Shown piece after piece: positions 19,877 through 23,025 of a DNA stretch of 38,523 bases. The translations under genes were made by a program, and so were the position numbers. This stretch comes from Vulcanimicrobiota bacterium. GTDB lineage: Bacteria > Vulcanimicrobiota > Vulcanimicrobiia > Vulcanimicrobiales > Vulcanimicrobiaceae. The stretch is from positions 16,299-54,821 of the forward strand of contig PLFC01000131.1 in NCBI GenBank assembly GCA_003136655.1. The letters run 5' to 3'. How positions within the stretch are numbered: position 1 is the stretch's first letter; each line of letters begins with the position of its first letter. The notes under the pieces were generated by a model. The model saw nothing but the letters and a program-made list of their open reading frames with translations, was not told the DNA's origin and did not search any database.

Positions 19877-19905
19877 ACCATACCGCAGAAGGCGCCCGGC
19901 GTCAC
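19877..19905 (-). promoter_or_regulatory. Promoter of the 57-aa acidic gene
   Basis: On the minus strand, GTGACG (plus 19900-19905) and TATGGT (plus 19877-19882) are exactly 17 bp apart, each with four consensus matches. The -10 box ends 6 nt before ATG 19870, predicting a leaderless transcript. Confidence 0.5.
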
Positions 19906-19920
19906 TTGCAGCGTCGTGGA

Positions 19921-20400
19921 CTAGCGCGCGGCCTCGACGGCCTCGGCCGGTTCGAGCGAATCGAGGGCGCGGCGCAACACGTCGCGTAGCAGGCGCTGGT
20001 CGGCGAGACTCAAGTTGGCGATGGCGGGCGGAGCCTGCTCCATGCGCGCGGCTAGGCGTGCGTGGGCGATCTTGCCGCTGTCGGTGACCACGAGAACTTT
20101 GACGCGCCGGTCGTGACCCGCCGCTTTACGCTCCACGAATCCGCGCGCTTCCAGCCGATCGATGATTGCGGTGACGTTTGAGGCGTCGCAACTGAGCGCC
20201 GTGGCCAATTCGCTCATCGTCGACGGCTCGTCGGCGACCAAGAGTTTGAGCGTCCACGCCTGGACGGGCGTCATGTCGAAGTCGGCGGCGATCGCCTCGA
20301 TGTGCGGTTTGCTCGCTTTGGAAACTTCGAACATCAACTGCCAGGCCTGCGCACCGGGCGACACGGGCCGACGTCTGGATCGCTTGGGAAGCGCGGTCAC
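19921..20400 (-). CDS. MarR family transcriptional regulator
   Basis: This 159-aa winged-helix dimer has an N-terminal basic stretch, dimer helices (AQAWQLMFEVSKASKPHIEAI), then the DNA-binding core FDMTPVQAWTLKLL, TMSELATALSCDASNVTAIIDRLEARGFVERK, and the wing HDRRVKVLVVTDSGK. A single cysteine (Cys in LSCDASN) lies at the start of the recognition helix region and could sense oxidants, which is speculative. GTG 20400 lies 6 nt after a -10 box. It is divergent from doxX with a near-perfect palindrome in between, so it probably represses doxX-ECF. Confidence 0.92.
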   Translation of the reverse strand: MTALPKRSRRRPVSPGAQAWQLMFEVSKASKPHIEAIAADFDMTPVQAWTLKLLVADEPSTMSELATALSCDASNVTAIIDRLEARGFVERKAAGHDRRVKVLVVTDSGKIAHARLAARMEQAPPAIANLSLADQRLLRDVLRRALDSLEPAEAVEAAR

Positions 20401-20406
20401 GCAGGT

Positions 20407-20435
20407 ATCTTAGCGCACCTCTTCGGAACTAGCAA
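20407..20435 (-). promoter_or_regulatory. marR promoter
   Basis: On the minus strand, TTGCTA (plus 20430-20435) and TAAGAT (plus 20407-20412) are exactly 17 bp apart, each with four consensus matches. The -10 box ends 6 nt before the GTG start, so the mRNA would be leaderless. The MarR-type palindrome lies directly upstream of the -35 box. Confidence 0.5.
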
Positions 20436-20436
20436 G

Positions 20437-20457
20437 ACTGTTGACTTGGTCAATAGT
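20437..20457. promoter_or_regulatory. Candidate MarR operator
   Basis: The sequence ACTGTTGAC-TTG-GTCAATAGT has 9-bp arms with one mismatch; the core TTGAC-TTG-GTCAA is perfect. It covers the -35 box of doxX and abuts the marR -35 box. Its size and TTGAC/GTCAA symmetry fit MarR-family operators. Repression of doxX by the divergent MarR is the simple inference. Confidence 0.7.
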
Positions 20458-20469
20458 TGGTGATACAAA
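20441..20469 (+). promoter_or_regulatory. doxX-ECF promoter
   Basis: TTGACT (20441-20446) and TACAAA (20464-20469) are separated by 17 bp. Transcription would begin near 20476, about 22 nt before the TTG start at 20498, leaving room for the GGAG ribosome binding site at 20486-20489. The -35 box lies inside the MarR-type palindrome. Confidence 0.55.
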
Positions 20470-20497
20470 GCATTTGCCCCATGCCGGAGTTGACTCG

Positions 20498-20875
20498 TTG
20501 ACGATCTTCCTCGCCGTCCTGCGAACGCTCGTGGGACTGGTCTTCGTGGTGTCGGGAGCCGCCAAGCTCTTCCAGCATCAACTTTTCGCGGCAAAGTTCG
20601 CCGGTTGGGGTGTGCCCGCGCCGGATGTTTCCGTGCTCGCGGTCGGTGCGTTGGAAATCGTTTGCGGCGGGCTGTTCGCGCTCGGCGCGCTGACGCGCCC
20701 GGTGGGCATGCTGTTGGCGACGATCATGGTGGCGGCCGCATATTTTGCAGGCCGCGCGGAACCCGTGCCGCACCTGATCGTGACCCCAATCCTTTTCGTT
20801 TTATGCGTGTTCTTTGCGTGGCGTAGCGGCCGGGTGCCCGGCCGCACACCGCTGCGGCGCCCGGGAGTGCAATGA
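20498..20875 (+). CDS. DoxX family membrane protein
   Basis: This 125-aa protein has four membrane helices. The DoxX pattern is LRTLVGLVFVVSGAAKLFQ, then FAAKFAGWGVPAPD, ALEIVCGGLFALGALTRPVG, and AAAYFAGR. Some DoxX proteins act in oxidative stress with partner redox proteins. I chose TTG 20498 because GGAG ends 8 nt before it and the protein then starts at the first helix; a longer frame would overlap the promoter. Its stop overlaps the ECF sigma start (ATGA), so the two are coupled. Confidence 0.87.
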   Translation: MTIFLAVLRTLVGLVFVVSGAAKLFQHQLFAAKFAGWGVPAPDVSVLAVGALEIVCGGLFALGALTRPVGMLLATIMVAAAYFAGRAEPVPHLIVTPILFVLCVFFAWRSGRVPGRTPLRRPGVQ

Positions 20876-21420
20876 GCGATACTGGAGACACGGCGCTGGT
20901 CGATGCCGCGCGGCAAGGTTCGGATGAAGCGTTCGCCGAGCTGGTCGACCGGTATCGCGCGCCGGTCGTGCGCCTCGCCTACCGGCTGACGCACGATCCC
21001 GACGAAGCCAAGGACATCGCACAGGATGCGTTCCTGCGTGCGTACCGCGGTCTGCGCGACTTCCGCACCGACCGGCCCTTCGCGCGCTGGCTCTTCGTGA
21101 TCGCCCGCAACGCGTCGCTGGATTCGATTCGCCGGCGCAAGCGCACGAGCAGCGTCGACGCGGTGCCCGACGAAGATCAGAGTCCGACGCCTGAAGAATC
21201 GGCGCTGCGCAACGACGAGGCCGTGCGCGTGCGCGAAGCCGTCGCCGCGTTGCAACCGCGGTACCGCGCGGCGCTCGAGTTGTATTACGTGCGCGGTTTA
21301 CGCTATCGCGAGATCGCGCTCGAATTGGGCATCCCGCTCGGCACGGTAAAGACGTATATCTCCCGCGCGAAGCGCAAGCTGCGCGAAGAGTTGGAAGGCG
21401 ACCTCGGCCTAGCGGCCTGA
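20872..21420 (+). CDS. ECF-type RNA polymerase sigma factor
   Basis: This 182-aa sigma factor has region 2 (EAFAELVDRYRAPVVRLAYRL, DEAKDIAQDAFLRAYRGL, FARWLFVIARNASLDSIRRR) and region 4 (LQPRYRAALELYYVRGLRYREIALELGIPLGTVKTYISRAKRKL). There is no C-terminal SnoaL-like extension and no anti-sigma gene follows. Instead it is coupled (ATGA) to the membrane protein DoxX and runs into a convergent AhpD-like gene with a 12-bp overlap. Control may come from MarR repression of the shared promoter. Confidence 0.93.
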   Translation: MSDTGDTALVDAARQGSDEAFAELVDRYRAPVVRLAYRLTHDPDEAKDIAQDAFLRAYRGLRDFRTDRPFARWLFVIARNASLDSIRRRKRTSSVDAVPDEDQSPTPEESALRNDEAVRVREAVAALQPRYRAALELYYVRGLRYREIALELGIPLGTVKTYISRAKRKLREELEGDLGLAA

Positions 21421-22038
21421 CGCGCCGGGCGGCGCGAGCCGGCCCATCTCGTAGAACTCGCGATTAGGGCGCATGTCCATCAAGCCCGCCATGCGGTTGG
21501 AAAATCCGAAGAATGCGGCGATCGCTGCGATATCCCAGATATCGTCGCGGGAGAAGCCCGCGGCCTGCAGCGCGTCGATCTCGGCATCGCTCGCGGCGAA
21601 GCCGCGCTCGTTCACGCGCGACGCAAAGGCGAGCATCGCGCGCCAGCGCGGCGTGAGATCGGCCGTCGTCCAGTTCGTCGCGATCTGGTCGGCGAGAATC
21701 GGATCTTTACTCAGGATGCGCAGCGCCGCGCCGTGCGCCGTGACGCAATAGAGACACAGGTTTTCGGCCGACACCGCCACGACGATCGCCTCGCGCTCCG
21801 CGCGCGAGAGACCGCTCGGACCGCGCATGAGGACGTCGTGGTATTGCATGAAGGCTCGAAAGTGCTCGGGTCGCTGCGCGTACGCCCGGAAGACGTTGGG
21901 CACGAAGCCGACCTTGGTGCGATTCTGGGCGTAGATCTCGCGGAGGTCGTCGGGCAGTTCGGCCTCGGGCGGCTCGCCGAAGCGCGAGGGCCGAAAGCGG
22001 GCGCCGTCGTGGGTTGAGGATTCGCCGGGAGAGGGCAT
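21409..22038 (-). CDS. AhpD/carboxymuconolactone decarboxylase-like peroxidase-related protein
   Basis: This 209-aa helical protein has the AhpD-like redox motif: LSRAEREAIVVAVSAENLCLYCVTAH, with Glu83, Cys95, Cys98 and His102 forming the expected CxxC-x3-His site. The C-terminal half resembles the uncharacterised peroxidase-related group (RWRAMLAFASRVNERG, FSRDDIWDIAAIAAFFGFSNRMA). It probably reduces peroxides. I chose ATG 22038 because longer frames run through the divergent padR promoter. The stop overlaps the ECF gene tail by 12 bp. Confidence 0.87.
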   Translation of the reverse strand: MPSPGESSTHDGARFRPSRFGEPPEAELPDDLREIYAQNRTKVGFVPNVFRAYAQRPEHFRAFMQYHDVLMRGPSGLSRAEREAIVVAVSAENLCLYCVTAHGAALRILSKDPILADQIATNWTTADLTPRWRAMLAFASRVNERGFAASDAEIDALQAAGFSRDDIWDIAAIAAFFGFSNRMAGLMDMRPNREFYEMGRLAPPGASGR

Positions 22039-22072
22039 GCGGCGCGGTTCGGCGGTCGAACGAGCGTTCCGC

Positions 22073-22109
22073 TTGACGTATCGCGATATATCGTGATAGT
22101 GTCGCGATA
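22073..22109 (+). promoter_or_regulatory. padR promoter with three tandem palindromic operator copies
   Basis: Three 10-bp boxes follow each other: TATCGCGATA (22079-22088, perfect palindrome), TATCGTGATA (22089-22098) and TGTCGCGATA (22100-22109). They fill the spacer and -10 region of a promoter with -35 TTGACG (22073-22078) and GATAGT (22095-22100, 16-bp spacer). The last copy includes the A of the ATG. TATCGCGATA-type dyads are typical of PadR sites. The divergent AhpD-like gene starts 70 bp away and may share the control. Confidence 0.75.
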
Positions 22110-22687
22110 TGAGTTTTGAACATAACCTTTTCCACGACCTCGGCCGGGTCGCCGTGGCTTTCAGCGCCGGCAAGCGCTTCGGCCGCGGACGCCACGGCCG
22201 GGATTTCGGCGTGTGGGGTCCGCCTCCGGGCGCCGGTTGGCCGGGCGAGCGCCGCACCCGGCGGGGCGACGTCAAGTACGCCATCCTCGAAGTGCTGGCC
22301 GAACAGCCGCGCCACGGCTACGACGTGATCCGTGCGCTCGAAGAGCGCCGCTCCGGGATTCGCCCGAGCGCCGGATCGATCTATCCCACCCTGCAACTGC
22401 TCGAAGACGAAGGCTGCGTCACCTCGGAATCCGTCGACGGCAAGCGCGTCTACACGATCACCGATGCCGGCCGGACGCTCTTGGCGCAGCGCCCCGTCGA
22501 AGCGACCGATGAAGACGACGAACACCATGCCGGCCGCCACGAACTGCGCGAATCTGCCTTTCGCCTCGGCGCCGCGGTGTGGCAGGCTGCGCGCGACGGG
22601 GAACCCGGCGCGCTGACCAAGGTGCGCGAGATCCTCGACCGCGCGCGTCGCGAAGTCTACGCGATCTTGGGCGGCGACTCGCTCTGA
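22109..22687 (+). CDS. PadR family transcriptional regulator with N-terminal extension
   Basis: This protein has 192 aa. A Gly/Arg/His-rich extension of about 50 residues (GKRFGRGRHGRDFGVWGPPP) precedes a PadR winged helix: RGDVKYAILEVLAEQPRHGYDVIRAL, then SAGSIYPTLQLLEDEGCVTSE, and RVYTITDAGRTLL. The C-terminal helical part includes DDEHHAGRHELRE, which could bind metal. ATG 22109 lies 8 nt after the -10 box. It overlaps the next gene by one base (TGATG). Confidence 0.92.
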   Translation: MSFEHNLFHDLGRVAVAFSAGKRFGRGRHGRDFGVWGPPPGAGWPGERRTRRGDVKYAILEVLAEQPRHGYDVIRALEERRSGIRPSAGSIYPTLQLLEDEGCVTSESVDGKRVYTITDAGRTLLAQRPVEATDEDDEHHAGRHELRESAFRLGAAVWQAARDGEPGALTKVREILDRARREVYAILGGDSL

Positions 22688-23025
22688 TGCTCGCCGTGCG
22701 CTGCGTGTCGCCGCGCGTCGCCGCCGACGCCGAACTGCTGGCCTGCGTGCGCCGCACCACGGCCGACGTCGACGCCCTGGTGGCCGACGCGGCGGGCGCC
22801 GATGCCGCCGGCCTCGCCGCGCTGCGCACGCGCATTACGTTCGCGTGCCGGCGCGCGATCTTGCACCCTGGGGGAGCGGAGCGCGACCGCGCTTGGCGCG
22901 AGTTGTGCCGCGGCATCGCCGCGCTGCTCGACTTCGCGCCGCGCGCGACCGCCGGCGAACCGGCTGCGCCCGCACGGTCGCGCTTGCGCGCATTGCTGCG
23001 CGAGAATGAGGATTTGCTGGTTTAG
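22687..23025 (+). CDS. Hypothetical protein coupled to padR, 112 aa
   Basis: ATG 22687 shares its A with the padR TGA stop. The protein is soluble, helical and rich in Ala and Arg, with four cysteines spread along it (VRCVSPRV, LACVRR, FACRRAI, RELCRGI). Motifs include TTADVDALVADAAGAD and GIAALLDFAPR. No family is recognised. The coupling suggests a partner of the PadR regulator. It converges on the YkgJ-like gene with a 4-bp overlap. Confidence 0.65.
   Translation: MLAVRCVSPRVAADAELLACVRRTTADVDALVADAAGADAAGLAALRTRITFACRRAILHPGGAERDRAWRELCRGIAALLDFAPRATAGEPAAPARSRLRALLRENEDLLV

Follow-up and report, generated by a model that had tools for sequence, protein, structure and literature searches.

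How an extracytoplasmic function (ECF) sigma factor is kept off when no anti-sigma factor accompanies it is a question posed by many ECF sigmas of uncultured phyla, and it is raised directly by the locus described here. The stretch of DNA that was analyzed (hereafter the window; 38,523 nucleotides of contig PLFC01000131.1) comes from an uncultured soil bacterium of Candidatus Eremiobacterota, represented by a metagenome-assembled genome (G000) of 3.4 Mb that is 76% complete. It encodes an ECF sigma factor (20872-21420, plus strand) preceded by a DoxX-family membrane protein and flanked by genes for a MarR-family regulator, an AhpD-type protein and a PadR-family regulator. An initial annotation of the sequence had listed these five genes, all of which are present at the positions claimed, and had read them as a compact candidate redox-response block. 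Sigma orthologs were searched for in 99 genomes of the family, and eight sigma loci were compared gene by gene: the window, L038, L039, L040, L041, L045, L046 and L047. The sequence of L041 (JANYGA010000140.1) is titled Rhodospirillales, and its genome (G007) falls within the Eremiobacterota family of the window, which makes it a mislabelled or contaminated bin. Overall, the comparison points to another answer: this sigma is probably an orphan, repressed by MarR and cleared by the protease ClpXP, that would work like sigma-AntA of Streptomyces.

The sigma protein has 182 amino acids and matches NCBIfam TIGR02937 with 118 bits, against a cut-off of 42.9. It belongs to the sigma70 family and contains regions 2 and 4 only (Pfam Sigma70_r2 at residues 24-92 and r4_2 at residues 119-170), as expected for an ECF (group 4) sigma. 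Only 12 residues lie past region 4, with neither a SnoaL domain nor any other extension, and no anti-sigma-like gene was seen beside sigma at this locus; on both points the initial annotation was right. Orthologs with 66-71% identity are found in 8 of the 99 genomes, one per genus. At L038, MarR is the only gene beside sigma, with neither DoxX nor any small gene there. In the sigma tree, L047 and L045 are basal and the six MarR-bearing loci (window, L038, L039, L040, L041 and L046) form one supported group (99/87), so that the pairing with MarR either arose once or was lost twice. In addition, a sigma paralog with 57% identity is encoded at L048 (6543-7505); it ends in AAA and has no obvious anti-sigma gene alongside, and the product of the next gene weakly matches the TipAS antibiotic-recognition domain.

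The feature that the initial annotation overlooked is the conserved Leu-Ala-Ala (LAA) at the C-terminus of sigma, encoded at 21409-21417 on the plus strand. All eight orthologs end in -AA and seven in -LAA, the last four residues being GLAA in the window, FLAA in L038, ALAA in L039, LLAA in L040, DLAA in L041, PLAA in L045, ILAA in L046 and QAAA in L047. The residue preceding the last three thus differs among all eight sigmas, the linker after region 4 is unconserved and varies in length, and the synonymous codons used for LAA vary between orthologs. An overlap with ahpD was rejected as the cause of this conservation, since LAA is kept in five loci where no gene overlaps the end of sigma (L038, L039, L040, L045 and L046). 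About 217 other long open reading frames of the retrieved loci were counted without this sigma and the L048 paralog; three have an AA end and not one has LAA. An -AA end occurs in 0 of 23 close paralogs that bear a candidate anti-sigma. Moreover, the transfer-messenger RNA (tmRNA) of the host genome encodes a tag ending in ANNNYALAA; nine family relatives also have -YALAA, and in two class-level relatives the tag is ANSEYALAA (ARAGORN). The C-terminus of sigma thus resembles that of the tag with which this organism marks proteins for degradation. ClpX was found in 34 of 35 high-quality relatives. Judging from ortholog conservation and from the tmRNA tag, the LAA tail should work as an SsrA-like degron for ClpXP.

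We then focused our attention on how synthesis of the sigma factor may be set. The MarR-family regulator (19921-20400, minus strand; Pfam MarR/MarR_2, E 3.5e-12) is divergent from the doxX-sigma operon, an arrangement seen in six of the eight orthologous loci, in different genera; the MarR orthologs of the five other genera share 50-59% identity. The six MarR loci, aligned on the -10 element, all carry a vegetative promoter for the sigma operon in the same place: TTGACT (TTGCAC or TTGACC in two of them), a spacer of exactly 17 bp, and TAYAAA. In the window it reads TTGACT, 17 bp, TACAAA (20441-20469, plus strand). With such a promoter conserved in all six loci, the sigma operon needs no ECF promoter, and it is in all likelihood transcribed by the housekeeping enzyme, independently of sigma itself. 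On the opposite strand, a marR promoter was predicted by eye at 20408-20437 (-35 TTGCTA, -10 TAAGAT, 17-bp spacer), and in all five relatives a TTGC -35 followed by 17 bp and a -10-like hexamer could likewise be read ahead of marR; the two -35 elements thus stand back to back on the same sequences. As the initial annotation proposed, MarR would then most simply be the controller of sigma, given its divergent position at six of eight loci and the vegetative promoter between the genes. A candidate MarR operator, the palindrome ACTGTTGACTTGGTCAATAGT (20437-20457), covers the -35 of the sigma-operon promoter. It is the sole match in the 3.4 Mb genome when up to three mismatches are allowed, and MarR consequently looks dedicated to its own locus. 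In L046, the best palindrome is centred on the identical position of this promoter; in L038, L041 and L039 a dyad is found some 20 nt downstream of where the -10 begins. As side observations, close MarR homologs also occur beside genes for resistance-nodulation-division (RND) efflux. At L128 (3760-4773) and L129 (4404-5374) a MarR related to that of the window stands beside an ECF-like frame, complete in L128 and short in L129, that is joined to a gene for RND efflux; this is another pairing of MarR with ECF.

Taken together, these features suggest a mechanism whose core is the MarR-sigma pair. Housekeeping RNA polymerase would read the sigma operon from the vegetative promoter, back to back with that of marR, and bound MarR would repress both promoters until some ligand releases it. 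On release, doxX and sigma would be made together and sigma would act on its regulon, and ClpXP would remove sigma constantly through its C-terminal Leu-Ala-Ala, the same three residues with which the host SsrA tag ends. Under constant removal, the level of sigma should closely track its transcription. In this lineage, DoxX would serve as an effector, co-produced with sigma through translational coupling, and not as an inhibitor of sigma. The closest known counterpart is sigma-AntA, an orphan ECF sigma whose C-terminal Ala-Ala makes it a substrate of ClpXP and whose transcription is controlled by FscRI; its Ala-Ala tail is present in 67 of 71 orthologs, and ClpXP degrades the protein only when it has the tail (PMC7142297, PMC8999054). 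Like sigma-AntA (ECF282), the window sigma is an orphan with no cognate anti-sigma, a conserved C-terminal Ala-Ala and a separate regulator that would act on its transcription. Unlike it, the window sigma belongs to another phylum, is paired with a divergent MarR rather than FscRI, ends in -LAA matching the host SsrA end, and has no biosynthetic gene cluster. The likeness proposed here is one of mechanism only, with degradation of the window sigma being predicted from its sequence. The locus also resembles the transcriptionally controlled ECFs (ECF32 HrpL, ECF39 SigE/SigQ, and ECF203 with TetR), in which the point of control is the sigma gene's own promoter and not an anti-sigma; for ECF203, a one-component repressor adjoining sigma has been proposed, as here. 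It differs from all three in that the repressor is a divergent MarR, and the comparison concerns the mode of control.

Several observations weigh against this interpretation. MarR is missing at the L045 and L047 sigma loci, and at L047 sigma is preceded by a different gene. The initial annotation placed a MarR palindrome on the doxX promoter; it is indeed there and covers the -35, but its strength does not exceed chance: shuffling the intergenic region 2000 times gave an equally good one in 124 cases, and 80 palindromes of this kind occur in the window, compared with 82-92 after shuffling. In relatives other than L046, the more plausible dyad is found close to the transcription start. As for the tail, its codons in the window share sequence with the 3' end of the AhpD gene, and since the eight sigmas share one ancestor it represents one retained evolutionary event rather than eight independent ones. 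L003, another sigma of G000, ends in AA despite a following gene that resembles a zinc-finger anti-sigma, and for that reason an -AA end alone was rejected as the mark of an orphan sigma. Moreover, no ClpX zinc finger could be detected in the window genome, which is 76% complete, or in G014.

These points leave room for other explanations. One is that the LAA end reflects only the structure or composition of the last helix in an Ala-rich proteome, with sigma under MarR alone. Ala-rich ends do occur, and the L003, L005 and L048 sequences end in AA; however, the last three residues of the sigma studied here are conserved across eight genera after an unconserved linker and through changing synonymous codons, and we regard this explanation as unlikely, if still worth consideration. 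Another places control in DoxX, or in the small operon protein of the relatives, as a membrane or soluble anti-sigma kept at a fixed ratio by overlapping start and stop codons. The DoxX gene (20498-20875, plus strand, TTG start) encodes a protein with four hydrophobic segments that matches Pfam DoxX (PF07681; E 4.3e-15; 56.5 bits, against a gathering score of 23.6). Its ATGA coupling to sigma (20872-20875), noted in the initial annotation, is present in the window, and the two genes overlap by the same length in L041 and L045. The sigma start overlaps the upstream stop by 4 nt in five loci, whichever gene precedes: DoxX in these three, a mini protein in L046 and a 48-amino-acid protein in L040. 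Moreover, an unannotated gene of 48-57 codons lies between marR and sigma in four loci (L039, 5324-5497; L040, 5831-5977; L041, 3548-3703; L046, 6161-6310), with a ribosome-binding site recognized by eye and conserved W, GDYF, RL and SSAP. A profile search of the 99 genomes recovered these four loci at E <=5.1e-23 and nothing else below 0.008. The gene after each of the close paralogs of sigma, which occur family-wide at 43-51% identity, encodes a small protein that resembles an anti-sigma, with hydrophobic segments and a motif like LDRALFALPLEEPPADLRASIL at its N-terminus. Against such a partner stands L038, which lacks both DoxX and the small gene. The earlier proposal that DoxX perhaps controls sigma finds no support at five of eight sigma loci, where DoxX and hence the coupling is absent, and in G003, where DoxX is directly convergent with AhpD, ends in the same residues as the window DoxX (PGVQ) and has no sigma; DoxX was accordingly rejected as a required control partner. 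Homology of the small protein to the candidate anti-sigma of the paralogs was not convincing in a profile comparison (E 0.04, with 8 of 200 shuffles as good). The small protein has no Pfam match above cut-off, and its AlphaFold model of two helices is too weak for use (predicted local distance difference test score 70, predicted template modelling score 0.30). Based on these results, an anti-sigma in this position seems rather improbable. It is conceivable, if also rather unlikely, that three layers are combined: the divergent MarR would set synthesis, the genome-encoded SsrA-like LAA tail destruction, and a swappable, translationally coupled partner (DoxX, the mini membrane protein or the 48-57-amino-acid protein) would tune sigma, for example by shielding the tail from ClpXP or presenting it.

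The redox-response regulon put forward in the initial annotation, in which sigma would drive ahpD and MarR or PadR would sense oxidants, draws on the other neighbours. The AhpD-type peroxidase-related protein (21409-22041, minus strand) matches TIGR01926 with 197.6 bits, against a cut-off of 81.8, and carries the family's E-x2-CLYC-x3-H signature as ENLCLYCVTAH; the ExxCxxCxxxH motif is conserved in the AhpD of all 30 relatives that have the gene. As previously noted, this CxxC protein is convergent on sigma, and it is directly so in five of eight loci. DoxX genes, furthermore, belong elsewhere to ECF regulons that respond to metals or hypochlorite (PMC3511200, PMC7907618). However, AhpD occurs in 30 of 60 relatives searched, six with sigma and 24 not found to carry it, and in several it directly follows a flavin adenine dinucleotide (FAD) oxidoreductase gene; in L038 and L039, AhpD does not adjoin sigma. 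The loci that bear sigma are dispersed over the AhpD tree, but a single clade was not rejected (approximately unbiased test, p 0.068), so that one ancestral insertion beside AhpD would account for the adjacency. No shared ECF-type promoter upstream of ahpD was recognized by eye in six loci. The PadR-family regulator (22109-22687, plus strand; Pfam PadR, E 6.5e-21) is absent from the seven other sigma loci. MarR cysteines gave no direct sign of redox sensing: the window protein has a single cysteine (Cys71) in the DNA-binding winged-helix region, as does that of L040 (Cys68), the sensing cysteine of the OhrR N-terminal helix is absent, and the OhrR model scores 39.8 bits against a cut-off of 200. 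By its cysteines, MarR is not an OhrR-type thiol sensor. With PadR in one genome, and AhpD family-wide and mostly without sigma, the five genes were rejected as a conserved redox block, and a redox regulon appears very unlikely. The locus does share with ECF41 systems, whose sigmas are associated with carboxymuconolactone decarboxylases, oxidoreductases or epimerases, a neighbouring CxxC carboxymuconolactone decarboxylase/AhpD-type gene and the lack of an anti-sigma gene. The ECF41 definition, however, includes a large C-terminal extension fused to region 4 (PMC3426412); as the window sigma has none, it is not ECF41, in line with the different design first suggested for it, and its AhpD gene has a convergent orientation and is a family-wide gene that mostly occurs where sigma was not found. 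In the Caulobacter SigF, Haemophilus RpoE2 and Neisseria SigE regulons, an ECF sigma likewise controls a membrane protein of the DoxX family, but there the DoxX genes accompany DUF692, DUF2063 and a small periplasmic or membrane protein and do not stand ahead of sigma, and those sigmas have anti-sigmas.

The remaining features are specific to single loci or to the paralogs. The PadR gene does have three operator copies, as initially described: the PadR-type boxes TATCGCGATA (22079-22088), TATCGTGATA (22089-22098) and TGTCGCGATA (22100-22109) lie outside the conserved unit and are particular to the window, and a double box of this type occurs once in the genome. PadR occupies the site of the FAD oxidoreductase gene found in six other loci; at 22109-23025, PadR and a short next frame replace the FAD amine-oxidase-like gene that in relatives lies between AhpD and a CxxCxxCC gene. 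The small gene is absent from the window, either lost or never present, and a six-codon frame ATGCCGGAGTTGACTCGTTGA (20481-20501), which ends over the TTG start of doxX, may encode a leader peptide or be what is left of the small gene. The mini protein of L046 (6301-6486) is a 61-amino-acid frame with one hydrophobic segment and an ATGA overlap with the sigma start, in the position taken by DoxX elsewhere. Among the paralogs, the protein encoded after the ECF sigma at L050 (5709-6086) and its homologs (L002, L015-L037) form a conserved family of about 125 amino acids with one or two hydrophobic segments and the N-terminal LDRALFALPLEEPPADLRASIL; at L050 the genes that come next encode a response regulator and a histidine kinase. 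No Pfam match was obtained for the copies of L050 and L051, and the protein looks like an undescribed anti-sigma.

At the time of its report, direct control of an ECF sigma by ClpXP was described as unique to sigma-AntA (PMC7142297). If the interpretation favoured here is correct, the sigma of this locus would be a second, unrelated ClpXP-controlled ECF in another phylum, with a tail that reproduces the host SsrA ending. An encoded degron together with a repressor would then be suggested as a recurrent substitute for an anti-sigma factor, and the last three residues of orphan sigmas would offer a simple readout.

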